This document shows, one piece after another, positions 11,976 to 61,586 of a DNA stretch of 64,000 nucleotides. The DNA is from a virus. The position numbers and the translations under genes are program-made. Every line of letters begins with the position of its first letter. The stretch's first letter is position 1. Where the stretch lies: the IMG/VR virus record IMGVR_UViG_3300006175_000009, positions 1 through 64,000 of that record. The stretch is one strand, 5' to 3'. The notes below the pieces were generated by a model. That model saw only the letters and a list, made by a program, of their open reading frames with translations. It was not told where the DNA came from and searched no databases.

Positions 11976-12005
11976 AGTCTATCAAGACCGTGGGGTCTGG
12001 GTCAA
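11976..12005 (-). promoter_or_regulatory. Promoter for tRNA cluster 1 and Sak4
   Basis: TTGACC (12000-12005), 18-base spacer, TAGACT (11976-11981). Its upstream side is the repeated element 12000-12145. Confidence 0.65.
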
Positions 12006-12145
12006 GTCGCTAGGGCTGCTACGGCTACTGCGGCTGCAACGGTTGAATCCTTATTGTTCCTTCTACTTCTTACTACTTTTCTCTTGGGACTTTCTTCAAA
12101 AGAACCGTAGTAACCATAGAAAAGGGCCTCTGACCTGGGGTTTTG
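12000..12145 (+). repeat. Inverted repeat arm A (mate at 61450-61586)
   Basis: The reverse complement of 61450-61586 matches here in blocks: GGTCAAGT.GCTA, GGCTGCAACGGTTGAATCC versus GGTTGCAACGGTTGAATCC, TATTGTT.CTTCTA, CCGTAGTAACCATAGAAAA and CTCTGACCTG. Both copies end in the -35 box of a promoter reading away from the repeat, here leftwards. It is low in GC compared with the genes around it. No ORF is present. Confidence 0.75.
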
Positions 12146-12247
12146 TGCTCCTGGAGCTGATGCATCTGCTATGGCACCTACTGTAGCTGTCTCTCCCGGA
12201 TACCCTTCTGTTGTAGGAGTAGTTACAGGGTGTAGTCGTCCGGATAC
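12146..12247. other. Non-coding spacer with two CCGGATAC words
   Basis: No reading frame. CCGGATAC occurs at 12196-12203 and 12240-12247; CTGTAG and GTAGGAGTAGTTACAGGGTG words in between resemble part of the repeated upstream element. It may belong to the control region for cluster 1. Confidence 0.35.
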
Positions 12248-12287
12248 AAAAAAGAGCCCCCACTACGGCTGAACCGTAGCAGGGGTC
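12248..12287 (-). terminator. Rho-independent terminator of the primase operon
   Basis: Minus strand GACCCC-T-GCTACGG, loop TTCA, CCGTAG-T-GGGG, then TTTTTT. It begins six bases after the primase-helicase stop codon. Confidence 0.85.
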
Positions 12288-12292
12288 TTTCG

Positions 12293-14890
12293 TCAGGCAG
12301 CGATGCCAACGCCTCCGTAGAAGGTGGTGCGTACACCGTCGGTCATCTTCTGGGTCTTCTTCAGGCCCGGAACGGCGGCCATCAGCTTGACACCGAACTT
12401 GTTCTGTGCGCCAGGGTGGTGACCCTCAATCGCGCACCAGTCCTGCCAGTGCTTGAAGAGGCGGGCGCACGGGGTGTAGACCTCGGGCCTGATGACGCAC
12501 TTGTCCTTGAGGAACTTGGAGATCGGGCTGGCCACGTCGGCAGCCATCTCAACCAGGGTCTTGGAGGACTCGGGCTCGGTGAAGCGGTTGCGGGCCACCA
12601 GGCGGTCGAGACCGTCCAGAGCCCAGTTCAGGATGGCGGGAAGCTCCTTCAGCAGCCGCTGCTCAAGGGTGTGGTCCTCCTTGCCCAGGAAGCTCTGGGT
12701 CATGGTCAGGAGCAGCATGCGGTTGTTGATGGCCCCGGAGGAGTCCAGGAGCGAGGGGATCTCGTTGGACAGGAGCATCATGCGGGAGGTCAGCTTGCCG
12801 GTCCAGATGGACTGGTACTTGCGGTTGACGTCAAGGTAGTCCTCACCCGTGATCGAGAGAAGACGCTCGACAACCGTCTCACCGCCCTGCTTGGGCATGC
12901 GGGCGTCTGGGATGATCGCCATGGACTTGCCGATCAGGGGGCCCAGTCCGAAGTCGCTGACCAGGCTGCTCATGGTCGGGGAGGCGATGTTGGCCGAACC
13001 GATCAGAGCGGACAGAACTCGGGCGATGGTGCCCTTGCCGGAACGAGGCGGACCGATCAGGACGAACATCTTCTGAAGGTCGGTGCGACCCGAGATGATG
13101 TACCCGAACCACTCCTGGAGCAGAGCCCTCGCAGCGTCGTCGTTGCCCCAGACGTTGTTCAGGAACTCGATCCAGTTCGGGCACTCGGTGGCGTTCTCGT
13201 CGTACGCGAACGGAAGGCTGTTGGTGTTGAAGTAGCGCGGGTTGTGCGGGTGAAGCTTGCGCTCGACAGCGTCCAGCAGGCCGTTCGTGAAGGCAACGAG
13301 ACGGTCAGGGTGCTCTCCCTGCTCACCGGTCCAGGAACCATCCGTCAGGCTGTCAGCGATGGTCGTGAGGCTCTTGAGGGAGTTCGCAACGTCGTTGACC
13401 CGCGCGGTGTTCGGGTTCCAGTCCTTCCGCTTGACCGTGTCCTCGCCCCGCTCCTCGTACTTGGCGTCCTCCAGGCGACGGTAGATCAGGCCCTGGACGT
13501 GGTCCTTGGACAGGACGTCCCAGTGGGTCTGGGTCCAGCCGTACCAGGTGTCGTTCCAGCGGCGCAGGATCGGGGTGTTCTCCACCAGCCAGCCGTTCTC
13601 CAGCAGGTGTCGTGCGACCTTCTGGGGCTTCGACGGGTGGGGCACCATGGTCTCGCTCATGGCATCCTCCAGGGTGAAGGACAGAACCTCATCATTCGTG
13701 CTCCCTTCCGGAGTGGGGTTGGCAGTTCCATCGAAGCTGAACAGGGGGGTGAAGTCTTCCACGGTGTTCTCGGTCGCCTTTCGGGCGTTGTTGGGGGCCT
13801 CGGTGGAGGCTCGCTTGTAGTCCTCGTCGCGCTTGGGGGCCTGCATCGGGCTGTTCAGACCGGCTTCGTACCCGCGCAGTGCCACTGTAGCAGCATTGCC
13901 CTTTGAGTTGCCAAGCTGTTCGGCCGCGCGGATCAGCTCCTCACGGGCGAAACCGTCCGACAGCTCACCGCCAGCGACGTAGTTGCCGACCGCAGCACCC
14001 GCCTTGTAGATCTCCTGGTTCCTCTGACCAGCGCCCGCAGGCACGGCCACCAGACGCCCCAGGATGCCATTCAGAGCCCCGATGCCGTACTGGGTGCCCT
14101 TGGGGTCCAGGGAAGCCTTGAAGACGCCGGAGGAGGGCTTCTGAGCCTTCTTCTCGTCAATCCCCAGCGCCTTGATCATGTACTCAGCGCTGACACGCTC
14201 GAAGTCGGGGGCCGGAGCAGCGATCGGAGTGGCCTGGGAGGGTTCTTCCCGCTTGTTGTTGAAGCTGCCGGGCAGACGAAGAACCGCAGCCGCGTGGGTG
14301 ACGGCCTTGTCTCCGCCCAGGTGGGCGAACTTCTCGGCCAGCGCCCGGTTGATCATCTGAAGCTTGACCCCGTCGATCGGGGCAGCCAGTGGGATGACGT
14401 ACTGGAAGTTCCGGCCAGAGCCCGAGTTCCAGATGAACGCGCCCAGGTCGTATAGCCACTGGAGAGCCTCGTTCATGGCGTCCTCGCCAGGGAACTCGAC
14501 GTGGTTGACGTCGTTGTCGCCCCAGACCGCCCAGATCTTCTCCGAGGCGTTCGCCTTCTGGCGCTTCGAACGGAGCTGCGGACGGGCCTCAGCGTCGATC
14601 GGCTTGAAGGAGCCCGGAGAGAAGTACATCTCGCGAGTGGTCGCACCAGCCATCCAGTGGCCCCCGACCTGGGTCAGAGCGTCAGCCAGATTGGCCGGGA
14701 AGTAGTAGGTCTGGTACCAGCGACGCTGGAGCTTGCCGTCGATCAGGGTAACCTCGTGCTGGGGAAGGTCTTCGACAGCGACCCGGAGCTGAGGCAGGGA
14801 GGCGAGGGTGACCATACCCTCGGAGTTCGCGTGGATGGCGTCCAGCATGGTCAGCGCGATCGACGTGTCGATCATCGGCTTCTCGGTCAT
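12293..14890 (-). CDS. Primase-helicase: AEP-like domain plus D5/SF3 helicase
   Basis: 865 residues. The N-terminal part has AVWGDNDVNHV (about 121-131) and SGSGRNFQYVIPL, then RLPGSFNNK, the arrangement of archaeo-eukaryotic (RepB-like) primases. The C-terminal part is a D5-type superfamily 3 helicase: FNTNSLPFAYD, then Walker A GPPRSGKGT (613-621), and later SLLDSSGAINNRML. ATG 14890 follows GGGAGGGAAACC. The family primes and unwinds DNA at replication forks. Its promoter carries the same operator type as the helicase gene. Confidence 0.85.
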   Translation of the reverse strand: MTEKPMIDTSIALTMLDAIHANSEGMVTLASLPQLRVAVEDLPQHEVTLIDGKLQRRWYQTYYFPANLADALTQVGGHWMAGATTREMYFSPGSFKPIDAEARPQLRSKRQKANASEKIWAVWGDNDVNHVEFPGEDAMNEALQWLYDLGAFIWNSGSGRNFQYVIPLAAPIDGVKLQMINRALAEKFAHLGGDKAVTHAAAVLRLPGSFNNKREEPSQATPIAAPAPDFERVSAEYMIKALGIDEKKAQKPSSGVFKASLDPKGTQYGIGALNGILGRLVAVPAGAGQRNQEIYKAGAAVGNYVAGGELSDGFAREELIRAAEQLGNSKGNAATVALRGYEAGLNSPMQAPKRDEDYKRASTEAPNNARKATENTVEDFTPLFSFDGTANPTPEGSTNDEVLSFTLEDAMSETMVPHPSKPQKVARHLLENGWLVENTPILRRWNDTWYGWTQTHWDVLSKDHVQGLIYRRLEDAKYEERGEDTVKRKDWNPNTARVNDVANSLKSLTTIADSLTDGSWTGEQGEHPDRLVAFTNGLLDAVERKLHPHNPRYFNTNSLPFAYDENATECPNWIEFLNNVWGNDDAARALLQEWFGYIISGRTDLQKMFVLIGPPRSGKGTIARVLSALIGSANIASPTMSSLVSDFGLGPLIGKSMAIIPDARMPKQGGETVVERLLSITGEDYLDVNRKYQSIWTGKLTSRMMLLSNEIPSLLDSSGAINNRMLLLTMTQSFLGKEDHTLEQRLLKELPAILNWALDGLDRLVARNRFTEPESSKTLVEMAADVASPISKFLKDKCVIRPEVYTPCARLFKHWQDWCAIEGHHPGAQNKFGVKLMAAVPGLKKTQKMTDGVRTTFYGGVGIAA

Positions 14891-14935
14891 GGTTTCCCTC
14901 CCAGTTGGTGTCTTTCGGACTTGCTGACGAGGAAG

Positions 14936-14965
14936 ACTTAACCACAATCAGTTGTGCTCTGTCAA
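14936..14965 (-). promoter_or_regulatory. Primase promoter with palindromic operator
   Basis: TTGACA (14960-14965), 18-base spacer, TTAAGT (14936-14941). CACAATCAGTTGTG (14943-14956) lies in the spacer and matches the palindrome in the DinG-like promoter. Confidence 0.7.
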
Positions 14966-15005: not shown

Positions 15006-17729
15006 CTAGCTGCCCGTAGCCTTTGACAGGATCAGGTCAGTGTAGCGACTCGGGATGGCGCGGTACTTCACGCTCAGGTCCCTGGTGACCGTGTTGCCCT
15101 GGCCGTCGTCCATCTCGACAGACTTGGCCTTGACGGGCGCTCGCTGCTCTGCGTTGACCCCACGTAGCTCGGTGTCGATACCAGCGGCGTCAGTGAGTGA
15201 TCGAGTGCGGTAGTCCTGGCGTCCCACCTGTGACCAAATGTCGGCCAGCTTGGGGACGTTGACCCTGAACTCTCCGTCGCGCTCGTTCCTGTAGACCGCC
15301 ATGACCAGACCGTGCTCACCGGGGCGAGTCGGGAACCCAAGGTGACGCCAGACGGTCGGGATGACCTCCAGGATGACGCTGGAAGCGTTCCCCAGATCCT
15401 CCTGAGAGCTGATCCACTCGTCTACCAGGCCGACCCACTTGGAGTCGCCTGTGAGGCTCTCCAGAACCCGCGCACCGGCCTTCAGGTAGCCGTAGGACTG
15501 ACCGACACGAGACGACCCGTCAACATCTCCGATGGCCTTGCTGTGGCACAGGATCGAAGCCACGAGGCTTCCGGCGATCTTGGTGAAGTCGTTGTTGAAG
15601 CGGGCCTTGAGGGGCTTGACGTCAACCTCGTACTGGTTCTTGCCAGGGTGGCGGAGCGACATGCGGTCCACGATCGTTGGCATGTCCAGCTTGATCAGTC
15701 GGTCACGGTTGGCCTTCTGGGAGTTGAAGTTGGTTGTCATGCCCTCGGACGAGATGATCGTAGCAGCGCGGAACTTGCCACCAGCGCGCTTGCTCGCGTT
15801 GGCCACGCTCATCTTGTTCTTGGCACCCTTGGTGATCGCCAGGCGGATCAACTGCTGTAGCTCTTCGTTGATGTGTACATCGTCAAACCAGACCACGCCG
15901 TTGTTGTTGGCCGTGTAGGCGTTCTCCGCAGACGCACGAGTCCAGGCACCACCTGAAGTGTCTACCCCGATCATCTGGAGTCCGGACTTGGTGTAGCTGG
16001 TCTTGCCCGACTCCGCAAGGCCCTCGATCTGGAGAGCGGGGAACATCTCTCCCTCGGTGAACTGGCCACGCAGGACGACCATGACGAGCCAGGAGCCCAG
16101 AACGGCAGCCACCTTCTCGTCGTGCCAGGTCAACCACTCCTTGAAGATGCTTACGGCCTCTTCGCACGACACTTCGAACCCGTAGGCGGACTTCGAGTTC
16201 TCCGTAGCGTACTCGGATGGCAGGCAGTCAGCGAAAGGTGCCAGTGCTGCTCGGCCAGGCTTGATCACACCTTCGTTGGTGATGAAGGCGTTGAAGATCT
16301 GGTTCCAGCCGGTGAAGCCGATCTCGGAGAGTTCAGGCAGGTCGAAGCTGTCCAGGAACATGGTGACCTGGTCCGCTGTCACGAACTGACCGTTCGCCTG
16401 GTTCGGAGGGTAGGTTGCCCCACCGAAGGCGCGCATCCACTTCTTGAACTCCCTCTCACCGATCAGCTCTTCGGAAGAGATCATCCGCTCGCCGATCAGC
16501 TCGCCAGAGCCCTTGAAGACGTTGACACGCCAGGCGCGACGGTCGGTGCTCATGATCACACGGGTAGGCACCAGGCTGAAGTTGGCCACAGGCGCGTACG
16601 CCACGGTCTTCTTCCCAGACTTGTCCTCCTGCATGAACCGAACGGTGAACTCGTCGTCCTGGATGCCCAGGAAGCCAGTGCGCTTGGTGAACTGCTCCGC
16701 GTTCGCAGGGATGGCCGGGTTCTCGGGCTTGTTGAAGATCGGGTTGCCTTCACGTTCACGCTTCTTGGCAACCTCCTTCGCCCAGAACCGCTGAAGCTGG
16801 CCCGTAACTATCTCGTCTGTCTGCGGCCTGCGGGAAGCACGCTCATAGTTCAGGACAAAGGCGAGAGCAGCCTCATAAGGAAGTCCGGCCTTGACGAACA
16901 TCTGGGCAACGCCACCAGCAACGGCAGTGCTGTTGTCGTTTCCTCGACCGGAAGCACCAGGAGAGGCGAGAGCCTTGACGTACCAGGGAGTTGAGGGATC
17001 GACTTCGTCCGGAATGTGGACCGAACCAGGCATGTCCTCGGGGAGAATCTCAAGATCGTCATTCTCCTTGACCTTGGGCAGGTTCTGAAGGTGGTCAACC
17101 CATGCCTGAGGAAGTTCCGGCAGTTCATCGACTCGCGGAACGCCTTCACTGACCTGACCGACTGGACCGTACCAGCGGTACTGGCGAACCTCTCCCGTGG
17201 TTTCGTTGACTACCTCGGAAGGCCAGGCGACCGCGTACCGATAGTTGTGCTGTACGAAGTCGATGAAACCCGTCTTGGAAGGCCACAGAAGCCCGCTGGG
17301 AACACGAAAGAACCGAATCCCTGACGGGTTGGCGAACCCGCGTGAGGTAGAGCGCCAGGTGGCGGGAAGGGCTCCGAGCTGCTCTTCGAGTTCCGCAAGC
17401 TGGTCTGCTCCATCCTTCTCGACACCCTTCTTCTCGTAGTGATCCACGTCGATGCCGATGACGTTCTCAGGCATGCGCAGAGCTACGTTGTTGTTGCTGT
17501 TGTGCGCCCACACGTGGATCTGGTGATCGGTCGGGTAGATCCCGGTGTTGACCATGCCAGTGAACCCCGAAGGAGGGGTCATCTTCTTCATGTGAGGCAG
17601 AGGAAGAACGCCACGCCACCCGAACTCGGTGTAGAGGTTGACGCTGCTGGCGTACGGACCCTTGCCCATGTCTGCGGAGAGCTGGCACCCGTCCTTAGTG
17701 CACGGAGCCTTAGTGGCTGTGTCGATCAT
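15006..17729 (-). CDS. Prim-Pol type primase fused to an AAA-type ATPase
   Basis: 907 residues from ATG 17729 (TTG 17738 is possible; neither has a clear ribosome binding site). Residues 30-190 look like a bifunctional primase-polymerase: VIGIDVDHY gives the DxD metal site, STSRGFANPSGIRFFRVP the basic strand, then VQHNYRYAVAWPS. The C-terminal part has GLAESGKTS (Walker A, about 570-578), VVWFDDVHI (Walker B) and ATIISSEGMTTNF (sensor 1). It resembles phage helicase-primases but is a different design from the adjacent D5-type protein. Confidence 0.8.
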   Translation of the reverse strand: MIDTATKAPCTKDGCQLSADMGKGPYASSVNLYTEFGWRGVLPLPHMKKMTPPSGFTGMVNTGIYPTDHQIHVWAHNSNNNVALRMPENVIGIDVDHYEKKGVEKDGADQLAELEEQLGALPATWRSTSRGFANPSGIRFFRVPSGLLWPSKTGFIDFVQHNYRYAVAWPSEVVNETTGEVRQYRWYGPVGQVSEGVPRVDELPELPQAWVDHLQNLPKVKENDDLEILPEDMPGSVHIPDEVDPSTPWYVKALASPGASGRGNDNSTAVAGGVAQMFVKAGLPYEAALAFVLNYERASRRPQTDEIVTGQLQRFWAKEVAKKREREGNPIFNKPENPAIPANAEQFTKRTGFLGIQDDEFTVRFMQEDKSGKKTVAYAPVANFSLVPTRVIMSTDRRAWRVNVFKGSGELIGERMISSEELIGEREFKKWMRAFGGATYPPNQANGQFVTADQVTMFLDSFDLPELSEIGFTGWNQIFNAFITNEGVIKPGRAALAPFADCLPSEYATENSKSAYGFEVSCEEAVSIFKEWLTWHDEKVAAVLGSWLVMVVLRGQFTEGEMFPALQIEGLAESGKTSYTKSGLQMIGVDTSGGAWTRASAENAYTANNNGVVWFDDVHINEELQQLIRLAITKGAKNKMSVANASKRAGGKFRAATIISSEGMTTNFNSQKANRDRLIKLDMPTIVDRMSLRHPGKNQYEVDVKPLKARFNNDFTKIAGSLVASILCHSKAIGDVDGSSRVGQSYGYLKAGARVLESLTGDSKWVGLVDEWISSQEDLGNASSVILEVIPTVWRHLGFPTRPGEHGLVMAVYRNERDGEFRVNVPKLADIWSQVGRQDYRTRSLTDAAGIDTELRGVNAEQRAPVKAKSVEMDDGQGNTVTRDLSVKYRAIPSRYTDLILSKATGS

Positions 17730-17782
17730 CCTTGTCAACCATTCTGCTTTGAGACCTTGATTCTAACGGTTGGCAATGACTC

Positions 17783-19126: not shown

Positions 19127-20074
19127 TCAGTGTCGAGTGAAGTTTTGTGCGAAGCCCAGCTCAGCGAGGTTGCTCAGCTCCTCCTGGTCCCCGTACTTCC
19201 GGCCTCGAAGGCAAGCCTCGGTGAAGGAGCACATGTACTTGCAGGTGTCTTCCTTCGGAGTGCGCTCGTGCCGGTTGTCGAGTCCGTAAGCCTTCAGGAC
19301 GGTCGCTGTGGCCTCGCGTGCGATGGTGTCCAGCTCGGAGGGCATCCGGTCCATGTAAGTGCGGGAGAAGCGCTCTTCGGGGGACTGCATCTTTGGCCGG
19401 ACGCCAGCTCGTTCGCCAGCTTCCTTTCGAACTTCCCAGCGCTCGATCTCGCCAGGAATGTCGCCCTTGTTCATCTTGGTCTTGACGGCATTATGAACAG
19501 CCATGAAAGACGGGTTGCCCAGTTCCCGTAGGGCCCACAGGTAAAGGCTGAACTGGTCGCTCAGGGCGTAGTCCTGCTCCTTCGGAAGAGTGGAACAGGT
19601 CTTATGGTCAAGTACGAGAAGGCGGTTCTTCTCATCGCGGACGATCAGGTCGATGGAGCCCTTGAGGATGATCTCCCGCTGTCCTTCGAAAAGGGTCGGG
19701 AGGGGGACTCGGAACTTGTGTTCGACGGCTCGGATGTTCCAGAGGGAATCTCCGTAGTAGCGCTCGTGATAGCCTTCGAACATCCAACGGACAATAGCCA
19801 CAGCCTCCTCATCCGAGTCCGACTGTACTGGTACTGAGTCGAGTACATGATGAGCTGCCTTCACGCATTCCGCGAGAGGCTTTCCCTCCATTCGACCCAG
19901 ATAGTACTGCTCGACAACGGCATGGAAAAGGGTGCCCTTGCCCAGAGCTGTGTTCAGGTTGTTCTTCTTGGACCACCGCATCTTGTACTCAAGCATGTGC
20001 TTGTGAGGGCACGTGCGGTAGCTGTTGATCTCGGACCACGAGACAACTAGGGGCTCTGGGTTAGGGCTGGACAT
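19127..20074 (-). CDS. Cas4/RecB-like PD-(D/E)XK nuclease with FeS cluster
   Basis: 315 residues. LVVSWSEINSYRTCP gives the first cysteine (22). GTLFHAVVEQYY, GSIDLIVRDEKN and LLVLDHKTCS form the PD-(D/E)XK core (Asp in GSIDL, Asp and Lys in LDHKT); QFSLYLWAL is the QxxxY motif. CKYMCSFTEAC (278, 282, 288) supplies the other three iron-sulfur ligands. Such phage enzymes process DNA ends in recombination and replication. The gene seems leaderless: ATG is six bases after its -10 box. Confidence 0.88.
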   Translation of the reverse strand: MSSPNPEPLVVSWSEINSYRTCPHKHMLEYKMRWSKKNNLNTALGKGTLFHAVVEQYYLGRMEGKPLAECVKAAHHVLDSVPVQSDSDEEAVAIVRWMFEGYHERYYGDSLWNIRAVEHKFRVPLPTLFEGQREIILKGSIDLIVRDEKNRLLVLDHKTCSTLPKEQDYALSDQFSLYLWALRELGNPSFMAVHNAVKTKMNKGDIPGEIERWEVRKEAGERAGVRPKMQSPEERFSRTYMDRMPSELDTIAREATATVLKAYGLDNRHERTPKEDTCKYMCSFTEACLRGRKYGDQEELSNLAELGFAQNFTRH

Positions 20075-20080
20075 GATCCC

Positions 20081-20111
20081 AGTTTACCATGAGACCATGC
20101 CCAGCGCGCAA
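20081..20111 (-). promoter_or_regulatory. Leaderless promoter of the Cas4-like gene
   Basis: TTGCGC (20106-20111), 19-base spacer, TAAACT (20081-20086), six bases, ATG 20074. Confidence 0.6.
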
Positions 20112-20116
20112 CATCC

Positions 20117-20551
20117 CTACTGCTCCGGGTCGAACACCTGGATCTCGAAACCGTAGCCGTAGTAGAACGGGTTCCCGCAGGACCAGTTCACGGTCAGTTC
20201 CAGCACGTCACCCATGTCGGCGTAGATGTGCCAGGTGGTGTATCCGTCCGTGGTTCCCACGCCCATGATGATGTGGTCCACCATCTCCGGGTGCAGCAGG
20301 AAGGCTTCCAGGTCCGTGTAGGCGCAGCAGTCCCCCTGTCCTACTAGGAAGACCTGCTTCCCGTTGTCCAGGGTGATCTTCGGAGCGCGTGCCGATCGCC
20401 ACCACTCGTCCTCGTTGTACCCCGGAAGCAGGGCGTTCTTCTCAACGCTGACGATCTTGTGGCCGACGATCGCCTCTTCCAGCTTGGTCTTGCTCTCGAC
20501 CATCGTGCCGTCGTCGTCGTCACCGTCGAGGATCTCAGTCTTGTAGTGCAT
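20117..20551 (-). CDS. Conserved-looking phage protein, 144 aa (DUF7448-like)
   Basis: ATG 20551 follows GGAGGGAACATC. The sequence has IVGHKIVSVEKNALL, KITLDNGKQVFLVGQGDCCAY, HIIMGVGTTDGYTTWHIYAD and NWSCGNPFYYGYGFEIQV, a pattern I associate with the DUF7448 proteins of actinobacteria and their phages. The paired Cys in GDCCAY may be functional. Molecular role unknown. Confidence 0.65.
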   Translation of the reverse strand: MHYKTEILDGDDDDGTMVESKTKLEEAIVGHKIVSVEKNALLPGYNEDEWWRSARAPKITLDNGKQVFLVGQGDCCAYTDLEAFLLHPEMVDHIIMGVGTTDGYTTWHIYADMGDVLELTVNWSCGNPFYYGYGFEIQVFDPEQ

Positions 20552-20579
20552 GATGTTCCCTCCGTGTCGTTGTACCAAC

Positions 20580-20608
20580 ACCCTATCAGATGTTGTCAGG
20601 ATTGCCAA
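20580..20608 (-). promoter_or_regulatory. Promoter of the 144-aa gene
   Basis: TTGGCA (20603-20608), 17-base spacer, TAGGGT (20580-20585); the -35 lies in the last codons of the preceding gene. Confidence 0.6.
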
Positions 20609-21276
20609 CCCATCTTGCGCTCGCACTCAGGACCGATGTAGCGCTCCGAGCCGTCCTTGGCCTTGATGGTCGGGTTGAGCTGAGTGCCACACCGGACACA
20701 TGAGTGGGTCTCCTGGCCGAACTTCTTGGCCTGCTCGCGGGTGAGCTTGTGGTGCTTGCGGATCTTGTTGATACTGCCAGGGGCAGGCATGAACTTGTGG
20801 GTACGGACACCGTTGGAGATGTGCTCCGGGTGGGTCAGGGCCGTGAGAAGCATGGCGTAGAGGTAACCCCGCTCCGACCGGCGAACCTTGTAGATCGCGT
20901 CACTGATCATGTACAGACCTTCTTCGATCCCGATGGGGCTCTGGACGAGCGTCCGCAGTCGGTCGATCTCAGTGCTGGCGGACTTGCGGTTGAGCTTGGT
21001 CAGATCCAGAATCTCGCCAGTGGTGTCGATCAGTTCTTCCAGAAGGCGGATCTGGGCTTCGGTGGGCTCCAGAGCCTTCGCCTCGCGGGCACGCTCGATA
21101 CCCGTCTTGTTGCCGAGCGCCTTGGTGAGGAGGCCCGACGCCTGTCCCTTGGTCATGCTCTGAATGTCACTCTCGGAGGCCAGGCCCATCTTGCGGATGG
21201 TCTTGATCTGGGCGACCGTGGCAGCGTCATCCTGCCAATTACGGGAAGATGCGCCCAGGATGCTCTGGTTCGACAT
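20596..21276 (-). CDS. Hypothetical protein with C-terminal zinc motif (DUF6011-like)
   Basis: 226 residues from ATG 21276 (GAAAGGAACCCCC upstream). The helical N-terminal and middle parts include AATVAQIKTIRKMGLASES and QASGLLTKALGNKTG, like small DNA-associated domains. The C terminus has CVRCGTQLNP, then GSERYIGPECERKMG, a three- or four-ligand zinc motif of the DUF6011 type. Function is not known; single-strand or damaged DNA binding is a guess. Confidence 0.65.
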   Translation of the reverse strand: MSNQSILGASSRNWQDDAATVAQIKTIRKMGLASESDIQSMTKGQASGLLTKALGNKTGIERAREAKALEPTEAQIRLLEELIDTTGEILDLTKLNRKSASTEIDRLRTLVQSPIGIEEGLYMISDAIYKVRRSERGYLYAMLLTALTHPEHISNGVRTHKFMPAPGSINKIRKHHKLTREQAKKFGQETHSCVRCGTQLNPTIKAKDGSERYIGPECERKMGWQS

Positions 21277-21287
21277 GGGGGTTCCTT

Positions 21288-21491
21288 TCAGGAGAGGTCC
21301 GCGTAGCAAGCGGTACCACTGTAGTAGGTCTGGCTCACCGGTTCAAGCCATGGCTCGGGGTCGAACTTCCTGCGAGGAGAGTAGAGCACCTGCTCGTCGG
21401 TCTCCCACAGCTTGACCACCTCACCACGTCTGCGAGCCTCCTTGAGCTGCTGGCTCGCCTTGTTCTTGTCGGTGGGCTTCTTGCTGTTCAT
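21288..21491 (-). CDS. Small basic protein, 67 aa, leaderless gene
   Basis: ATG 21491 lies seven bases after the -10 box TACAGT, so no ribosome binding site is expected and none is seen. The product starts MNSKKPTDKNKASQQLKEAR, a lysine/arginine-rich helix, and ends with an aromatic tail (WLEPVSQTYYSG). Function unknown. Confidence 0.65.
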   Translation of the reverse strand: MNSKKPTDKNKASQQLKEARRRGEVVKLWETDEQVLYSPRRKFDPEPWLEPVSQTYYSGTACYADLS

Positions 21492-21498
21492 GGTCGTA

Positions 21499-21527
21499 AC
21501 TGTAGAGCCTCCTGGGTTGCCTGTCAA
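21499..21527 (-). promoter_or_regulatory. Leaderless promoter
   Basis: TTGACA (21522-21527), 17-base spacer, TACAGT (21499-21504), seven bases, ATG 21491. Confidence 0.7.
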
Positions 21528-21634
21528 GCAAAGAACCTCTCGCCGGGGGAGTTGGCAAGAGGTTCTAAGGGAGGTGCTGATGGAGGGGTTGGTCCATCGG
21601 AAGACTCCAAGTATTCAGTTGGGGAAGGGTGGAA

Positions 21635-21913
21635 CTAGGCGGTACGGCGCTCCCTGTTGACCTCCTGGTCGCGAGCCAGATCCTCATCCGAGATGTGGAA
21701 GACGTTGTCGCGGAGGTACTTGCCGAACTCCTTGGGGGTCTTGGAGAAGGCATCGAGAGCTTCGATGGGGTTAAGGCTGTAGACCTTAACGATCCGGTTG
21801 AACAGTTCACGACCAGGCATCCGGGTTCCGGAGCGGAGTCGCGAGGCGGTGGTGAAGTGGCACTCGACAGCGGCGGCGAAGCTGTAGAGCGTGACACGTG
21901 GATGATTCGTCAT
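21635..21913 (-). CDS. Second small helix-turn-helix protein, 92 aa
   Basis: SFAAAVECHFTTASRLRSG followed by MPGRELFNRIVKVYSLNPIE resembles an XRE-type helix-turn-helix with a helical C-terminal tail. ATG 21913 is six bases after the -10 box TAGCCT, so it is probably leaderless and made without a normal initiation site. It lies at the border between the replication and virion blocks and could regulate either. Confidence 0.65.
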   Translation of the reverse strand: MTNHPRVTLYSFAAAVECHFTTASRLRSGTRMPGRELFNRIVKVYSLNPIEALDAFSKTPKEFGKYLRDNVFHISDEDLARDQEVNRERRTA

Positions 21914-21919
21914 GGTAGT

Positions 21920-21949
21920 AGGCTATCAGTTGGGTTGACTGTGTGTCTA
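21920..21949 (-). promoter_or_regulatory. Leaderless promoter of the second HTH gene
   Basis: TAGACA (21944-21949), 18-base spacer, TAGCCT (21920-21925), six bases, ATG 21913. Confidence 0.55.
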
Positions 21950-22003
21950 GTTTAGGTGTAGAGGATCGTAGTTCGTAGACAATTCAACGAGGTTCTGGGT
22001 GTG

Positions 22004-22077
22004 AAAAAGGGGTTCACCAGACAGGTTCAGATGGTTCAGGTTGCCCCGAACTCTCCGTTCCGATCTTGGTGAACCCC
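22004..22077 (-). terminator. Main terminator of the virion-lysis block
   Basis: GGGGTTCACCA and TGGTGAACCCC arms (11 bp) enclose a 47-base loop and are followed by TTTTT on the minus strand. It lies 50 bases after the last gene of the block. The loop carries CTGAACC direct repeats. Confidence 0.85.
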
Positions 22078-22127
22078 CAGGTCACCGCCGGTTCATGCCC
22101 GGCTAGAACCCCCGAACTAGCCCTGAA

Positions 22128-22427
22128 CTACTTAGCCCCGACTGCCTGCCAGATGAGAGCCGCAGTACCTGCCACACCTGCCAGGATGGTCAAGACAGAA
22201 TGTGGCATACGGCGCTCTTCCAGCGAGCGGATTCGAGCCTCGAAATCTGGGAGACGCTCGGCAAGCCGGTGACGCTCTAGATCGCGTAGGCGCGGCTCCA
22301 GGTCGGACATGCCCGACAGGCGGGCCTCGATCCTCTGAAGCGCGTCATGAATAGTGCGAACCTCCGCATATACCTGGCTCAGGTCGATCTGAACGACCGG
22401 CTGCTGAGCGCTTTGCTGGTTAGTCAC
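22128..22427 (-). CDS. Holin-like protein, coiled coil plus C-terminal membrane helix
   Basis: 99 residues. An N-terminal Gln-rich stretch and a coiled coil (YAEVRTIHDALQRIEARL, LRDLERHRLAERL) lead to one hydrophobic helix (SVLTILAGVAGTAALIWQAV) at the C terminus, the layout of XhlA-type phage lysis membrane proteins. GTG 22427 follows AAAGGAG. It is the gene directly after the endolysin, which supports a lysis role. Confidence 0.65.
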   Translation of the reverse strand: MTNQQSAQQPVVQIDLSQVYAEVRTIHDALQRIEARLSGMSDLEPRLRDLERHRLAERLPDFEARIRSLEERRMPHSVLTILAGVAGTAALIWQAVGAK

Positions 22428-22463
22428 GGGTGGCTCTCCTTTAGGTAGTTCGGGGAGTCCCTA

Positions 22464-23468
22464 CTAGGGAGCCATCCATGTCATGAGCCAGGTGATCGGA
22501 CCAACGATCCCATCGACCTGGAGTCCGTGACGCTGCTGGAACTCACGGGTCAGTTCCTGGCAGTGAGGGCCGAAGTAGCCATCGACACCGTTCACAGCCC
22601 ACGTACGGTCAGTCATCTTCTGCTGCCAGGTGACAGCCGCAGAATCCTTTCCGTGGTAGGTTCCAGTCCACTGGAGGGTGTGCTGGAAGGCAGGAACGTT
22701 GCCGGTCCAGAGCAGCTTGCGCATGCTGGTCGGGCCAGGGACACCGTCAGCGTCTCCGCCCGAGTAGCCGAGCTTCTGCTGCCACGCCTGGTAGGCTGCG
22801 GTGGTGTGGTCGCCCCACTGGCCGTCAACGCCCTGAGGGTCACAGCCCTGGTTGGCCAGAAGCTGCTGGGCCTGGGAGACCTGCGCGCCAGAAGCCCCGT
22901 AGCCGTAGTCCTGACCGTCGATGGTCACTCGCTGCCGTGGGAGGGACGGCGCAGGTGTCGGGTCTGGAGTGGGCTGTGGCTGACCGCCCGATGGACGTGG
23001 CATGCCAGCCTGAACCCAGGCGTACAGCTTCTCGCCGGGGCAGTCGGTGTTGAAGCCGTCTCGGTGGCCGTGCTTGGAGAGCGTGCGACCAGTCCGTGAA
23101 CAGGCGAGGTCGTACAGGTCATCGCAGGCCGACAGCGCGGCATCCGATGGGTCCTGGTCTCCACCGATGGCGATCTGCACACCGAAGGCGGAACGGTTGT
23201 GGTTCGGGCAGTGGGCACCCTGGAGGTCCCAGCCGCGACCCTCGAAGACGTTTCCGTCCTGATCGACTACGAAGTGGTAGCCGATTCCAGCCCAGCCGTT
23301 CCCCTTGTGCTCAGCGTCGATGCGCTGAGGAACCTGGTTGCCGGTGATGTTGATGTGGGAGCCTCCGTCGTAGTGGACGTAGAACTCCGTGCGCTCACTC
23401 AGGTCAACGTGGTTCGGAGAGCCATCCCACCCTGTGAAGCCCCAATCGGAGCGGGAGATGATGTTCAT
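22464..23468 (-). CDS. Endolysin: N-acetylmuramoyl-L-alanine amidase with two peptidoglycan-binding domains
   Basis: 334 residues. Residues 1-150 form an Amidase_2/PGRP zinc amidase: His32 in YVHYDGG, GWAGIGYHFVV, and KHGHRDGFNTDCPG (His135 and Cys143 as zinc ligands). A Pro-rich linker (about 160-180) follows. Two PF01471-type binding domains come next (VSQAQQLLANQG...GVDGQWGDHT and WQQKMTDRTW...GVDGYFGPHC, then GLQVDGIVGPITW). It cuts the bond between muramic acid and the stem peptide. ATG 23468 has GAAAGAGG upstream. Confidence 0.93.
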   Translation of the reverse strand: MNIISRSDWGFTGWDGSPNHVDLSERTEFYVHYDGGSHINITGNQVPQRIDAEHKGNGWAGIGYHFVVDQDGNVFEGRGWDLQGAHCPNHNRSAFGVQIAIGGDQDPSDAALSACDDLYDLACSRTGRTLSKHGHRDGFNTDCPGEKLYAWVQAGMPRPSGGQPQPTPDPTPAPSLPRQRVTIDGQDYGYGASGAQVSQAQQLLANQGCDPQGVDGQWGDHTTAAYQAWQQKLGYSGGDADGVPGPTSMRKLLWTGNVPAFQHTLQWTGTYHGKDSAAVTWQQKMTDRTWAVNGVDGYFGPHCQELTREFQQRHGLQVDGIVGPITWLMTWMAP

Positions 23469-23510
23469 TGAAACCTCTTTCTCTACGGGTCAAGATTAGA
23501 CCGTTTTGAT

Positions 23511-23541
23511 AACTGACGGTAGTCGGTGGGGGGTGTCAGTT
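23511..23541. other. Inverted repeat upstream of the endolysin
   Basis: AACTGAC and GTCAGTT arms (7 bp, 17-base loop with a G run). Followed by TTTTC on the plus strand, it might stop plus-strand transcripts or be a binding site. Confidence 0.4.
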
Positions 23542-23573
23542 TTCTGCCAGGCAGGCATATGTCGCACTCTTGA

Positions 23574-23942: not shown

Positions 23943-23945
23943 GTC

Positions 23946-24962: not shown

Positions 24963-24982
24963 ATGACTCCAAGTCTAGCGTA

Positions 24983-49123: not shown

Positions 49124-52100
49124 CTAGTTTCCTCCGCCTGCACCGGAAGGAGCCTGGTGGACAAGCCCTGAGGCATCCTGACCGGTCATGTTTCCGTAGC
49201 GGACCTGGCAGAACGTACGCGAATTCTCCAGACCGAGCGTCTGTGTAGCCAGGGTTACACAACGGCCAATGTCGCCAGTGGTTCCCCACTTGATCTGGGC
49301 GGCACCAGCTCCGGTCTCGAAGAAGTCGATCAGAGTCGGGTCCTGCATCATGATCGACTCGTCAACAACGCCCTGCTGGGAGACGTGCTGCTCAGGAGCT
49401 GGGGCAACTGTCGGTGTGGCAGCAGGAGCCGACTGTCCTCCACCTAGCTGCTCGTGGATTGCCATGCCCATGCCCTTGTCGGCCTTGATGGCATCCCACT
49501 CATCGCACACGTCTTCAGCCTTGATCAGGCCCTCGACCAGAGTGCAGGAACCCGAAGGCAGGAACATGCTGCACGTTCCACAGCGCTTGTTCGGGTTGTC
49601 CGACTCACGGTAGTCAACGGACTCCTTGGAGACCTTCTGACCCTTCTCCGCGTCCGGTCGTGCAACCGTAGCAGAACCAGACTGCTTGCCATCCTTGGCG
49701 AACTGGTAACTGTGCGTCTGCTCCCAGCGATCGTCGTCTTCTGGAACGAATCCCAGGTAAGTGACGAACGGGCGACCAAGCTTCTTGTAGGCAAGCACGC
49801 GGTGGTGCCCGTCCACAATCTTGATTCGGCTGTCACCTTCGGTCTGACGGATGCTGATTCCAGGCTTGAGTTCCTTGCCCTTCTTCAGCTTCTTGGCCAT
49901 CTCCGCCACGGACTCAGGTTCGTTCGCAGCAGCCCAGTTGTCCGCGTCATCAAAGTCGATGCGCTCCAGTGGAACTTCCACCGGTCCGACCCAGCGAGCA
50001 TCCTTGACCCACTTGAGACCCTTGTCATCGAAGTCTCCGCGCATCATGTTCAGCACGTGAGTCTCAGCAACAGGGTTCGGGTCGTCAAGATCCTTGGCAC
50101 CCTTGCCAACTGCATCTCCGGAGACATGCATGTCGTTGACGTCATGAGGCTGAAGCTCGTAGCCTCCGTGCGTGTAGTCTCCAGGACGCCAGTCCCCGAT
50201 GAGATCCTTCCAGAACACCTGACCAGCAGAATCCACGAGGCGCTGCTGACGGACCATCTCCACAGCCTGGTCAACCTCTGCACCCTTGGCCATGTACTCG
50301 TTGATCCGAGCAAGCACATCACTGCTCAGGTGGCGTGGTTCCCAGTCGGAGACCTGACGCCCCTTCTTGACGTGGCGAGCCATCGACTCCAGCTCGGAGA
50401 GAATCGCTCGTGTCTTGCTGGCGAACACCCGAGCCACATCGGCATCGCTGACGTCCTGCGCCTTGACCGACTGCGGTGGAAGCTTTCCGGAAGCGCGTAC
50501 GCGGCCGTTGATCAGCTCCGCAACGCGGTCCTTCATGTCTCCACGGGACAGCTCGGTCATGCCACGGTCCTCGTGAGGCTTTGTGGCAGTGTCCTTCCGC
50601 TTTGCCTCCGAGTACTCAAGAGAGCAGTTGCAACGCGGCCCACCCTCACAGATATCCCCGAAAGCGCCGTCACCCGGGTATCCCGGTAGCTCGCTCAGGG
50701 AGAAGGTCTGACCATCGCGGTCGATGCACAGAGCGCAGTTCTCGCCAGAGCCCAGGTGCCAAGTGGCTTCCCACTCACCCCCGCTTGCCCTGACAGCATC
50801 ACCATACGCCTTGTTGTACGCGAACTGCAAGCTCTGCGCATAAATGCCGATGCGACCCTTGAGCTTCTTGTCAGGCTTGGCGATGGCCGTCTGGATCAGA
50901 CCGTCCAGCCACTGACGCTGACCCTCAGCCAGCTTCCACTCCTGCTCGTGACCTGCGCTGTTTCCAGTGTAGTCCAGCTCAAGATCGTCGGTGGCGTCGT
51001 CTACGGCCTTGGACATGACGTCCTTGTAGCCCGCCGTGAGGAACGTGACCCCAAGGTGCACAGCCTTGTTGCGGTCGATCTTGCCATCCCGAACAGACTC
51101 TACAAGCTGCTCAAGCTGGTCGCCGACCTTCTCTGTGAACTTGTCGATCCGCTTGGTGCGGCGGTCCTGGAACTTGTTCCCACCCTTGACGATCTCAGGC
51201 TCTTCGCCCTTGGCCATCGGAAGCGGAACCTCTGGGGTGTCAGCACCGGCAGTGGCAGCGTGATGACCTGGAGTCATCTCAGGCTCGCCAGCCGGAACCT
51301 CAACACCACCGGCAGGAGAAGCCAGATCGGGGGTCGAAGGCTCAGCGGGATCACCCGGAACAGGCTCGCCTGAGTCTGCCGAAGCACCGGCCCCAGAAGG
51401 ACCGCCAGGGCCTGTTGCAGGCATACCGTCCGGGCTGACGAAGACAGAGCCTTCCTGGGCACCTGTACGGGCCGCAGCGATGGCCTCTGTGAGCGGAGTC
51501 CAGCCAGTAGCGGTCGCCCAACCTGGGTCGCTGGTCTCAGGCAGGCCCCAAGGCTGAAGGTCAAGCTCCTCGCGAGCCTCGTCAATCGAGCGGAGAGCGG
51601 AGCCAACCTGGTCAATCAGGATCTGAGTCTTGATCTGCTCGTCTTCGCCCTCTTCCAGACCCTCGAACATGAAGCGCATGTCCGACTGGCCGCAGACCTC
51701 CTGAATGATCACATTCATAATGTCGGCGACGAAGGAGAGGAAAGGCTTGGTGGCCTTGCGCTCGTGAATGTTCTGGCTCGACTTGCTCATCTGGTTGGCT
51801 GCGCCAGGCGAAACGGTGGTCGAGACCTTCGGCATGATGCCCAGCTCCATTGGCTGAACGTCAAATGCCATGCAGACCTGGTTCATCACGATCTCATCGA
51901 ACTGGTCCGCAAGCTGGCCCTGCTTCTGCGGCATGACCTTCGAGTCGGCAGGCAGAACGATGATCTTGTGCTTCCATGCCGGGTCACCAGCAATCGCGTT
52001 CAGGGCGTCCTGAAGCTCGCGAATCTGGTTCGGGGTCATGTTCGCATTCGCACCACCAGGAGAGATGTAGACGGCCGGAACCGTTCCCTCACGGTAGTAG

Positions 52101-53107
52101 TCAAGCTGGAAGCCCTGCTTCTGGAGACCGGCCATGACCGGAATCAGAGCGCGCTCAACTGGCGGGAATCCATAAGGAGTCCAACGACGTGCCACCATCG
52201 GCAGGTACAGAAGCTGACCAGCGTGGAACTGGCTCACCTCGGAGCCATTCAGTCGGCCGTCGTCCAGATCCCTTTCGGTGATCAGGGACATGAGATCAAC
52301 GCGAGGAACTCCGTACAGATACTGCTGGTAAGCGGGCGCTGGTGGACGTGGGCGCTCACCGTGCATGCCGAATAGCGGCCTGATGGTCGGGCCGGAGATC
52401 AGCGAAAGAGAGTCAAGGTCGGACCCAAGAAGCCCATGCCCATGACCACGAGCCCACTTGGGCCGGATAAGCAGAGACAGCGCATCGAAGACGAAGACCT
52501 CTTCGGAAAGCGCGTCCAGGAAAGAGGCCCAGTTGAAGAAGTCCGGGTCGGGACGCTTGAAGAACTTGACGACCTCCGCCCTGCGAGAACCGAAGCTCTT
52601 GGCCAGGGACGGGCTTCCTCGCATGGCCTTGGAGGCGTCACGGGTCGGCAGAATGTCCCACTCGACACCACGGACCTCGTTCTTGCGGAGTTGAATGCAG
52701 GCACGTGCGACCGAATACAGATCGGCCAGAGTCTTGAGAGTGGAGAAGTCGGCGAGCTTTACGCCCTCAGAGCCAGGCTGGCCTACCGGAAGGTTCCAAC
52801 CTACCTGGTATTCCTGGAGACGTGGCTCGGAAAAGCCACTGTCCTGTGAGGGAACATCGACCGGAACCGGAAGAATCGGGTTCTGCGGACCGAATGAACC
52901 ATCGGAGAAGATGGACGGATCACGAGGAAGGACTAGGCTGCCACTTCCGTATGCGTGACCCCAGCTCATGGTGTCCATGCTGTTGGCCATGGCGGCTGCG
53001 CCATTACCCCAAGCGCCACCCGAAACAGGAGCCCCGCCCATGCCAGACATTCCACCTGGAGATGGAAATGCCTTGTTGGCTGCGAGGATTGACTTGCGAC
53101 TTGCCAC
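49124..53107 (-). CDS. Giant fusion: portal, MuF-like, ParB-like and Cys-cluster domains
   Basis: 1327 residues from GTG 53107 (GGAGG eight bases upstream). About 60-560: portal (LADLYSVARACIQLRKNEVR, RLNGSEVSQFHAGQLLYLP, MELGIMPKVSTTVSPGAANQ). About 560-640: Pro/Ala/Gly linker. About 700-845: MuF-type head morphogenesis domain (WHLGSGENCALCIDRDGQTF, then GPRCNCS). About 1050-1140: ParB/Srx fold (VPLERIDFDD, IKIVDGHHRVLAYKK). About 1178-1207: four-cysteine module (RCGTCSMFLPSGSCTL, DVCDEW). The C terminus has a further paired-Cys module (GRCVTLATQ, TFCQVRYGNMTG). Confidence 0.88.
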   Translation of the reverse strand: MASRKSILAANKAFPSPGGMSGMGGAPVSGGAWGNGAAAMANSMDTMSWGHAYGSGSLVLPRDPSIFSDGSFGPQNPILPVPVDVPSQDSGFSEPRLQEYQVGWNLPVGQPGSEGVKLADFSTLKTLADLYSVARACIQLRKNEVRGVEWDILPTRDASKAMRGSPSLAKSFGSRRAEVVKFFKRPDPDFFNWASFLDALSEEVFVFDALSLLIRPKWARGHGHGLLGSDLDSLSLISGPTIRPLFGMHGERPRPPAPAYQQYLYGVPRVDLMSLITERDLDDGRLNGSEVSQFHAGQLLYLPMVARRWTPYGFPPVERALIPVMAGLQKQGFQLDYYREGTVPAVYISPGGANANMTPNQIRELQDALNAIAGDPAWKHKIIVLPADSKVMPQKQGQLADQFDEIVMNQVCMAFDVQPMELGIMPKVSTTVSPGAANQMSKSSQNIHERKATKPFLSFVADIMNVIIQEVCGQSDMRFMFEGLEEGEDEQIKTQILIDQVGSALRSIDEAREELDLQPWGLPETSDPGWATATGWTPLTEAIAAARTGAQEGSVFVSPDGMPATGPGGPSGAGASADSGEPVPGDPAEPSTPDLASPAGGVEVPAGEPEMTPGHHAATAGADTPEVPLPMAKGEEPEIVKGGNKFQDRRTKRIDKFTEKVGDQLEQLVESVRDGKIDRNKAVHLGVTFLTAGYKDVMSKAVDDATDDLELDYTGNSAGHEQEWKLAEGQRQWLDGLIQTAIAKPDKKLKGRIGIYAQSLQFAYNKAYGDAVRASGGEWEATWHLGSGENCALCIDRDGQTFSLSELPGYPGDGAFGDICEGGPRCNCSLEYSEAKRKDTATKPHEDRGMTELSRGDMKDRVAELINGRVRASGKLPPQSVKAQDVSDADVARVFASKTRAILSELESMARHVKKGRQVSDWEPRHLSSDVLARINEYMAKGAEVDQAVEMVRQQRLVDSAGQVFWKDLIGDWRPGDYTHGGYELQPHDVNDMHVSGDAVGKGAKDLDDPNPVAETHVLNMMRGDFDDKGLKWVKDARWVGPVEVPLERIDFDDADNWAAANEPESVAEMAKKLKKGKELKPGISIRQTEGDSRIKIVDGHHRVLAYKKLGRPFVTYLGFVPEDDDRWEQTHSYQFAKDGKQSGSATVARPDAEKGQKVSKESVDYRESDNPNKRCGTCSMFLPSGSCTLVEGLIKAEDVCDEWDAIKADKGMGMAIHEQLGGGQSAPAATPTVAPAPEQHVSQQGVVDESIMMQDPTLIDFFETGAGAAQIKWGTTGDIGRCVTLATQTLGLENSRTFCQVRYGNMTGQDASGLVHQAPSGAGGGN

Positions 53108-58698: not shown

Positions 58699-59069
58699 TT
58701 CTTCACCCTCAAGAGTCGAAGTTCAGCCACCGCCAGTTGATCGGCGAGCTGTCGGTTACGCGCCTGCTCTTCGTCCAGAGCATCGGTGAGAACAGCCATC
58801 TCTGCCGGATACTCCTTGACGTCCTCTCGAAGCTTTTCGATGGTGACGTAGAGCGTTCCGACCTTGGAATTTAGACCACCAAGGGTCCGCTTGAGCTGTT
58901 GGAGTTCAGTCTCCGCCTCTTCTGCTACAGCCGAAGCCAGTGCAGCCAGAGCGTGAAGGTCGCCCGCAGTCCAAGACGAGCCTTCTTCGTACGAGTAGAG
59001 CGCATCGGCAATACTCCTTATCTTGTCATGGAGCAGCGTCTTCTGTGGATTGGGCTTCCTTCTGCTCAT
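58695..59069 (-). CDS. Coiled-coil protein, 124 aa, leaderless gene
   Basis: ATG 59069 is six bases after TACTGT and lacks a ribosome binding site. After MSRRKPNPQKTLLHDKIRSI comes a long coiled coil (AVAEEAETELQQLKRTLGGL, VTIEKLREDVKEYPAEMAVL, LDEEQARNRQLADQLAVAEL). Function unknown; first gene after TerS. Confidence 0.65.
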   Translation of the reverse strand: MSRRKPNPQKTLLHDKIRSIADALYSYEEGSSWTAGDLHALAALASAVAEEAETELQQLKRTLGGLNSKVGTLYVTIEKLREDVKEYPAEMAVLTDALDEEQARNRQLADQLAVAELRLLRVKK

Positions 59070-59075
59070 GGGTAC

Positions 59076-59105
59076 ACAGTACCACAGTTGTTGCACCTGT
59101 GGCAA
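59076..59105 (-). promoter_or_regulatory. Leaderless promoter downstream of TerS
   Basis: TTGCCA (59100-59105), 18-base spacer, TACTGT (59076-59081), six bases, ATG 59069. Confidence 0.7.
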
Positions 59106-59110
59106 GACTA

Positions 59111-59141
59111 AAGCCCGCCTCCTCAGCTCACGGGAGACGGG
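59111..59141 (-). terminator. Terminator after TerS
   Basis: GCCCG-T-CTCC and GGAG-G-CGGGC arms, then TTTAG, 55 bases after the TerS stop codon. Confidence 0.65.
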
Positions 59142-59195
59142 CCCTAGTGGAAGGAAACCCAACCCCAGGCGTCCTTCGCTTCTTCCGCAATGATC

Positions 59196-59711: not shown

Positions 59712-59745
59712 GTCGCACCCTTCTAGTGGTGCTTATAGCATAGAA

Positions 59746-59790: not shown

Positions 59791-59862
59791 TAGTGTTGGA
59801 GCCGGGCCTCCCCCAAAGTGGCTCACACAACACCGATTCGATGATAGACCATCAGATGGCCT

Positions 59863-60851: not shown

Positions 60852-60922
60852 GTGTCTCCTTGGGTTGTCGTTACGGGAGAAGCCTCCCACAACAGTTGTC
60901 CTACTGTCAAGTACAAGGGCAT

Positions 60923-60959
60923 GAAGAAACCCCCAGCCATGGGAGTGACCAGGGGCTTC
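60923..60959 (-). terminator. Hairpin and possible terminator
   Basis: AAGCCCC...GGGG pairs over a loop and is followed by TTTCTTC on the minus strand, just after the stop of the 131-aa gene. TTGACA (60905-60910) beyond it lacks a good -10; a palindrome ACAACAGTTGT (60889-60899) lies in the expected spacer. Confidence 0.5.
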
Positions 60960-60967
60960 CTCGAAGT

Positions 60968-61363
60968 TCACCGGTTGCGCTGATCCACACGCACAGAAAC
61001 GTTTATCGGTGAGGCGTTGTGTCGGCCGCCCGATGAACCTCGCATATAGGCTAGCACCCCGATGATCCCGAGGATCAAGCCCAGAGCAGTTGTGGCCTTT
61101 GCAAGGGCCTCAAACATGAAGCTCAGACCCCATGCAGCAGCGCCAAGACCAGCAAGAGCAAAACCAGCTCCGGCAAGACGCTGAGCAAGAGGATCAATCC
61201 CAGGACGCCCAGATACTTCACGAACTTCATGGGTTTCGTAACGGGGTCGGACATGGCGAACTCCTCGGTCGGTTGCCCGGAAAGGCTCCAGCTCTCGCTG
61301 CGCAGCCTCTCGATAGTCCACGAGAAGAGCGTCTAGCTGCTCTCGGAGATCAACATCGTTCAT
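60968..61363 (-). CDS. Membrane protein, 131 aa, leaderless gene
   Basis: ATG 61363 is six bases after the -10 TAACGT. A charged N-terminal half (LREQLDALLVDYREAAQREL) leads to two hydrophobic helices (RLAGAGFALAGLGAAAWGL and TALGLILGIIGVLAYM). It is the first gene of the leftward block, right beside the divergent control region. Function unknown. Confidence 0.65.
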   Translation of the reverse strand: MNDVDLREQLDALLVDYREAAQRELEPFRATDRGVRHVRPRYETHEVREVSGRPGIDPLAQRLAGAGFALAGLGAAAWGLSFMFEALAKATTALGLILGIIGVLAYMRGSSGGRHNASPINVSVRVDQRNR

Positions 61364-61369
61364 GCAACC

Positions 61370-61398
61370 ACGTTACTACCTACTTGTTCCCGTGTCAA
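61370..61398 (-). promoter_or_regulatory. Leaderless promoter at the divergence point
   Basis: TTGACA (61393-61398), 17-base spacer, TAACGT (61370-61375), six bases, ATG 61363. Confidence 0.75.
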
Positions 61399-61449
61399 GG
61401 GTTTCCGGCAGCTATGGCAGTGCCATGGTTGGATCTAGGGTTTTCGGAG

Positions 61450-61586
61450 GGTGTTTCCGCAGGTCAGAGCCTGTTTTCTATGGTTACTACGGTACTAGGG
61501 AAGAAGTAGTAGACAAAGAAGTACACAACTAGAAGAAACAATAGGGATTCAACCGTTGCAACCGATGCAGCCGTAGCAACTTGACT
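61450..61586 (-). repeat. Inverted repeat arm B (mate at 12000-12145)
   Basis: Read on the minus strand it matches 12000-12145 with blocks up to about 19 bases identical (CCGTAGTAACCATAGAAAA). It lies between the leftward and rightward genes and ends in the -35 of the rightward promoter. No ORF; AT-richer than the genes. Confidence 0.75.

Follow-up and report, generated by a model that had tools for sequence, protein, structure and literature searches.

Inverted, AT-rich non-coding copies of one element as candidate paired replication origins in a virus genome

Phage P4 has two separate cis sites carrying iterons, ori and crr, together with a P4-family primase-helicase, and in Streptococcus thermophilus phages the origin adjoins the primase. 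For the tailed Bacillus phage SPP1, the relevant sections of one paper describe two origins of similar organisation, oriL and oriR, both having repeats and AT-rich tracts for unwinding (PMC6316719). The replication protein of plasmid pRN1 (orf904) fuses a prim-pol and an SF3 helicase, and replication needs a region 3′ of its gene; in passages of the same paper the authors propose this site also for the Bordetella phage BIP-1, as a large stem-loop, and note that a role as origin is not directly proven (PMC4234260). Here, we examine a non-coding element that is present in two inverted copies, A and B, in the IMG/VR virus record IMGVR_UViG_3300006175_000009. The analysed stretch, positions 1 to 64,000 of the 78,117-base record, is called the window. 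An original prediction, made from the letters of the window, had described the pair as a shared control region in front of two operons. We will argue that A and B may be paralogous paired elements of the replication-origin type, both carrying a promoter at the downstream end, and we give this reading close to an even chance.

When the window is compared with itself, the best non-self match joins 12017–12140 (core of copy A, minus strand) to the reverse complement of 61457–61578 (core of copy B, plus strand), with 125 columns, 80% identity and E 3.9e-18, while the second-best match is far weaker (E 8.6e-5). The inverted pair with near-identical blocks, about 49 kb apart, is thus real, as originally predicted. 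Chance similarity of AT-rich spacers, the null named in that prediction, can be rejected, since the core local alignment scores 73.5 and the maximum in 300 dinucleotide shuffles is 20.5 (0/300). Of the intergenic gaps 90 bp or longer, 32 in number, none scored above 18 apart from the two holding A and B, and a search of the whole record returned only these two copies.

The upstream flanks, 12158–12231 (−) for A and 61367–61435 (+) for B, are also homologous, though more weakly (score 16.5, equalled by 1 of 1000 shuffles). They are collinear with the core and add about 70 bp, the B flank ending almost at the start of a leftward gene at 61363. The sequence beyond the core on the downstream side, on the other hand, is not homologous between the copies, its score being reached by 473 of 1000 shuffles. 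The unit thus spans from beside this gene start to the −35 box. A longer alignment, with a 9-base gap, extends the match to TTGAC, and together with the promoter scan it confirms that both copies end at a TTGAC −35 box. The conserved blocks include GGTCAGAG, TTTTCTATGGTTACTACGGT, one that ends in GGATTCAACCGTTGCA, and GCCGTAGCA; of these, the 20-bp TTTTCTATGGTTACTACGGT is identical in the two copies, and no longer identical block was seen. Between the blocks lies a purine-rich linker with indels.

The two copies are also the most AT-rich places of the window. Over all 50-, 80- and 120-bp stretches, A has the lowest GC content and B the second lowest. At 80 bp, the core of A (12043–12122, purine-rich on the minus strand) has a GC of 0.34 and that of B (61474–61553, purine-rich on the plus strand) 0.36, to be compared with 0.41 for the third-lowest stretch and a window mean of 0.60 (standard deviation 0.045). 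In purine asymmetry, the same cores rank 13 (A) and 4 (B) of 12,788. For the stretch L003 of the same record, B again gives the lowest 50-bp GC, at 0.34, the next value being 0.40. An AT-rich tract like the unwinding tract of iteron-type origins (SPP1, P4) is thus present in both copies.

A promoter-like site is located at the downstream edge of each copy, so that the AT-rich tracts sit upstream of promoters. The site after A is TTGACC-18-TAGACT (11976–12005, −), firing left, and the one after B is TTGACT-17-TACACT (61581–61609, +), firing right; they are the sole matches in 11200–12400 and 60900–61750, respectively. With a match defined as at least 9 of 12 positions, the record contains 15 sigma70-like sites, including these two, and as 11 of the 15 are intergenic the class of sites is real. 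Both are ordinary sigma70-like promoters that fire outwards from the 49-kb interval, and with such a good site after each copy the term control region is a fair one. The operons were said to face each other, but they diverge outwards from the interval. According to the gene calls and the lists of open reading frames, genes run leftward over 1–61363, apart from a single call of 38 residues on the opposite strand, then rightward over 61649–68406 and leftward over 68444–77851; B sits in a divergent gap.

Copy A sits between the terminator of a primase-helicase gene and a tRNA-like stretch; after the latter come Sak4, a phrog_2300 protein, a helicase and a DNA polymerase. The primase-helicase (12293–14947, −), our candidate initiator, scores 177.8 bits with the NCBIfam model 'phage/plasmid primase, P4 family' (TIGR01613), above its cut-off of 108.7, and matches Pfam D5_N and DUF5906. 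The intrinsic terminator between it and A (12257–12285, −) consists of a 13-pair stem and a T run, and a Prim-Pol protein (15006–17738, −; PF09250, E 2.9e-16) adjoins the primase-helicase. A position 3′ of a prim-pol/SF3 gene, after its terminator, is found for copy A only.

A comparable arrangement is seen in distant relatives. The helicase of the window phage is 39.5–40.6% identical to those of the Streptomyces phages Hiyaa, Spocter, Keanu and Galactica, and the gene order (terminase, portal, tape measure, endolysin, recombinase/exonuclease, primase, helicase, polymerase, dUTPase, FtsK) is comparable. Self-comparison of Hiyaa gives a non-coding pair of 347 columns and 71% identity. One member of this pair immediately follows the primase, the second separates the FtsK/small-gene block from the terminase, and these positions correspond to the places of A and B. 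With a 401-base query, five records gave two places apiece; they represent four distinct phages, all four of them Hiyaavirus, and Galactica and Keanu were inspected directly. No annotated feature lies under these paired elements. As in the window, two paralogous non-coding copies occupy these two gene contexts and have AT-rich tracts (60-bp AT ranks 2 and 1 for the Hiyaa pair, of its two halves). The Hiyaa pair differs from A and B in its direct orientation and its clear GTTACCCC iterons: GTTACCCC/GGGGTAAC occurs 21 times in Hiyaa, 9 times in the first element and 10 in the second, around the AT-rich tracts, and the enrichment of 5-, 6- and 8-letter words in the first element exceeds all 200 shuffles. 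The Hiyaa primase, classed by Prim-Pol, PriCT_1 and a weak DUF927 match and not by the SF3 tblastn applied to other phages, differs from that of the window in lacking D5_N.

These results indicate that the element is more than a promoter, as seen from its AT ranks of 1 and 2, the position of A right after the terminator of a P4-family primase-helicase, and the Hiyaa pair. The AT-richest cores, the primase gene before A and the origin-like pairs in related phages were overlooked in the original prediction. The anatomy gives good support to its proposal that one shared control element precedes the two operons. A single activator or phage sigma-like factor acting on both, also predicted there, would be hypothetical; the two promoters are of the ordinary sigma70-like kind. 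We therefore lean, from a nearly balanced position, towards A and B being paralogous paired origin-type elements, on the basis of the two-copy homology with its boundaries, the AT ranks, the promoters, the terminator, the primase adjacency and the comparable pairs elsewhere. In the mechanism that we propose, the P4-family primase-helicase, perhaps with the adjacent Prim-Pol, would assemble on the conserved blocks, melt the AT-rich, strand-asymmetric core and then prime DNA synthesis. Replication of the phage would thereby start at two sites separated by about 49 kb. The outward promoter of each copy would start the next operon, and its transcription may aid opening. Initiator binding, melting, origin activity and any division of labour between A and B are parts that we infer.

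Compared with the described systems, the window is like P4 in having a P4-family primase-helicase and two cis sites, and unlike it with respect to iterons, none being significant in A and B; the passages searched in a paper on P4 satellites make no mention of crr (PMC8628076). The SPP1 pair, as presented in the sections cited, shares with A and B the occurrence of two origins of similar organisation in one tailed phage, with an AT-rich tract, but its direct repeats are bound by gp38 and its helicase is of the DnaB type, while A and B are without significant repeats (PMC6316719). Copy A is like the pRN1/BIP-1 site in lying just 3′ of a replication gene, past the terminator; in the passages on pRN1, however, the site is a large stem-loop in one copy, whereas the window has B elsewhere and its Prim-Pol and SF3 parts as two genes (PMC4234260). 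With neither the iterons of SPP1 and P4 nor the pRN1 stem-loop found, A and B are not filed in either family. That they function like origins is a proposition we hold at just under even confidence, and membership of the SPP1/P4 or pRN1 families is not claimed.

Other phages were considered in a small, hand-picked sample of genomes, each compared with itself, which gives no basis for quoting frequencies. Besides Hiyaa, a long remote intergenic pair was found in phiC31 (133 bp, 75%), Microbacterium phage Quenya (117 bp, 83%) and Arthrobacter phage London (203 bp, 79%). Like the window, these three SF3-type primase phages have one remote two-copy intergenic element and an AT-rich stretch, the 60-bp AT ranks of the two copies being 1/2 for London, 3/2 for phiC31 and outside the top 40/1 for Quenya (1/2 for the window). 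Unlike A and B, their pairs are in direct orientation and none adjoins the primase. The dyads are clear in phiC31 and Quenya, again unlike A and B: of 200 shuffles, 0 match the flanking dyads of phiC31-1, 0 those of Quenya-1, 1 those of Quenya-2 and 0 those of Hiyaa-2, with phiC31-2 borderline (9). Hairpins relative to shuffles are strong in London and Quenya, weaker in phiC31 and hardly present in Hiyaa, to be compared with a moderate excess in A and hardly any in B.

PHTowN has several repeated intergenic stretches instead of one pair. At 19600–25089 of this genome (L097), which has the same primase family, we observed several repeats of 190–330 bp, partly intergenic. Other repeated intergenic stretches are present in Hiyaa too, and repeats as such are thus not rare. 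No clean remote pair was obtained by self-comparison of BPP-1, LMAVpH or a 12.8-kb part of DT1. The actinophages mu1/6, D29 and Min1, SF3-negative by tblastn with four SF3 queries, gave a pair in 0 of 3 cases, the two repeats of Min1 falling within annotated genes. In the DT1 part, the AT-richest 80 bp immediately follow the primase on its 3′ side, and in BPP-1 their 3′ distance from it is about 550 bp; phiC31, Quenya and LMAVpH have theirs elsewhere. The actinophage records examined contain no annotated replication origin. A description of such pairs as origins was not recognised in the searched literature, which mostly excludes subscription journals, and we do not claim that they are unpublished.

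It is important to state which results speak against an origin role. No word is significantly enriched as an iteron in A or B (the best 4-mers are matched in 49 and 131 of 500 shuffles, respectively), and a repeat of the test had the same outcome. The flanking dyads are not significant (85 of 200 shuffles for A, 18 of 200 for B), and a large stem-loop of the pRN1 kind is missing, A ranking 416 of 1704 window stretches and B folding like shuffles. Neither the third-position skew nor the GC skew of the window gives a replication signal, and no DNA similarity of A or B to the Hiyaa or Galactica elements was detected. A clean remote pair was present in just 4 of the 8 sampled genomes with a P4/SF3-type or Prim-Pol primase. 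Finally, the homology of A and B stops exactly at the −35 box, as expected of a promoter region. As a separate observation, A and B are the densest stretches in GTAG/CTAC; this word was considered as an iteron and dropped, as family-wise shuffles gave it no support.

The boundary at the promoter is explained at least equally well by a shared transcriptional control region, and this is a strong rival. According to such an explanation, which is near that of the original prediction, A and B are duplicated control regions of two operons co-regulated by one phage or host regulator, and have no role in replication. We regard it as a serious possibility, though one that falls clearly short of even. 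Both copies stop at the −35 box of the sole promoter-like site in their region, the promoter thus having the same position in both, most promoter-like sites of the record are intergenic as noted above, and the gap holding B is divergent. The phiC31 pair, moreover, precedes gene 1 and the tRNA-Thr/HNH end, and repeated intergenic motifs are described as common in actinophages in parts of one paper (PMC7302621). On the other hand, no place in the window is as AT-rich as the tract upstream of the promoter, the element is absent from nine other intergenic promoter-like sites, and no sigma70-like site was found at the phiC31 and Quenya pairs.

An RNA leader, such as a put- or nut-like antiterminator common to the two operons, was also considered. 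Two copies before two operons resemble such systems, and the transcribed strand of A folds better than shuffles (z −3.0). However, B does not (z −0.4), Rfam has no match in B and nothing relevant in A, and with the predicted promoters downstream of the element it would lie outside those transcripts. We regard a leader as very improbable. A remnant of duplicated coding sequence is similarly improbable: an open frame of 89 codons does cross the element in A, but it has no start codon, B interrupts it, and nearly all differences between the copies in this frame, as judged by eye, alter the residue. The least probable option is that the copies are recombination arms inverting the intervening 49 kb, as had been suggested. 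While the inverted orientation and the distance would suit such arms, the identity is 80% with indels and the longest identical block 20 bp, no recombinase was found among the proteins scanned, there is no sign of a flipped isomer, and the comparable Hiyaa pair is direct.

Relatives of the element itself were sought as well. Distant blastn gave none in phages, and a two-block pattern has no match in viral contigs and none in genome contigs, two single-block patterns giving at least 80 and 10 loci. Of the 93 loci collected, none carries the element except three from the record of the window. The best other locus (L090, E 2e-4) was taken as chance, since it had been selected by its 16-mer, and a shared 18-mer was discarded as a conserved motif, as in viral contigs it mostly lies in coding sequence, where it specifies RFYGYYGG in an unrelated, roughly 430-residue protein. 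Three window proteins have no close relatives in viral contigs, and a megablast of 40–64 kb against phages gave no match.

Some further features surround the two copies. The first protein gene downstream of A encodes a Sak4-like recombinase (10430–11200, −; phrog_124, E 3e-33), and that downstream of B an HNH endonuclease (61649–62347, +; phrog_1492, E 5.8e-12). Leftward from the gap holding B runs the reading frame of a small protein (60968–61363, −) without PHROG or Pfam match. The tRNA cluster predicted after A could not be confirmed: ARAGORN finds no tRNA at 11.29–11.96 kb, and Rfam gives just a sub-threshold tRNA-Sec match. The region 11295–11720 (−) does have six successive T-arm-like motifs, which neither program accepts as tRNAs. 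As the one at 11361–11295 has a 7/7 acceptor stem and, judged by eye, an Ile(GAT) anticodon loop, it is possible that these are divergent or damaged tRNA genes. This tRNA-bearing genome also contains RNA-repair genes, two RNA ligases and a polynucleotide kinase, beyond the window (L003 11380–14664, record 70379–73663).

Elsewhere in the window, the 1327-residue portal protein (49124–53107, −) has a ParB-like stretch at residues 1044–1113 and is apparently a fusion, and in a 900-residue protein (46277–48979, −) the match to a head maturation protease is confined to the first 170–180 residues. The best-folding 150-nt stretches for their GC are 21976–22125 and 59026–59175 (−), with z values of −4.8 and −4.2. 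The third-position GC is lower in the virion-gene half, window 24000–60000 (0.69–0.72), than in most of the remaining sequence (0.75–0.86).

Taken more widely, we suggest, tentatively and with less than even confidence, that P4-family/Prim-Pol actinophages commonly carry two paralogous AT-rich non-coding origins far apart. The window would then represent an inverted, iteron-poor and promoter-bearing variant; in phiC31, London, Quenya and Hiyaavirus the origins would be direct and have iterons or dyads. If the pairs are promoters only, the same comparison delimits a shared control element. If they are origins, they would offer a sequence-only route to finding origins and a reason for the repeated non-coding elements of well-studied phages, phiC31 among them; replication from two origins, as known in SPP1, would become testable in laboratory Streptomyces phages.

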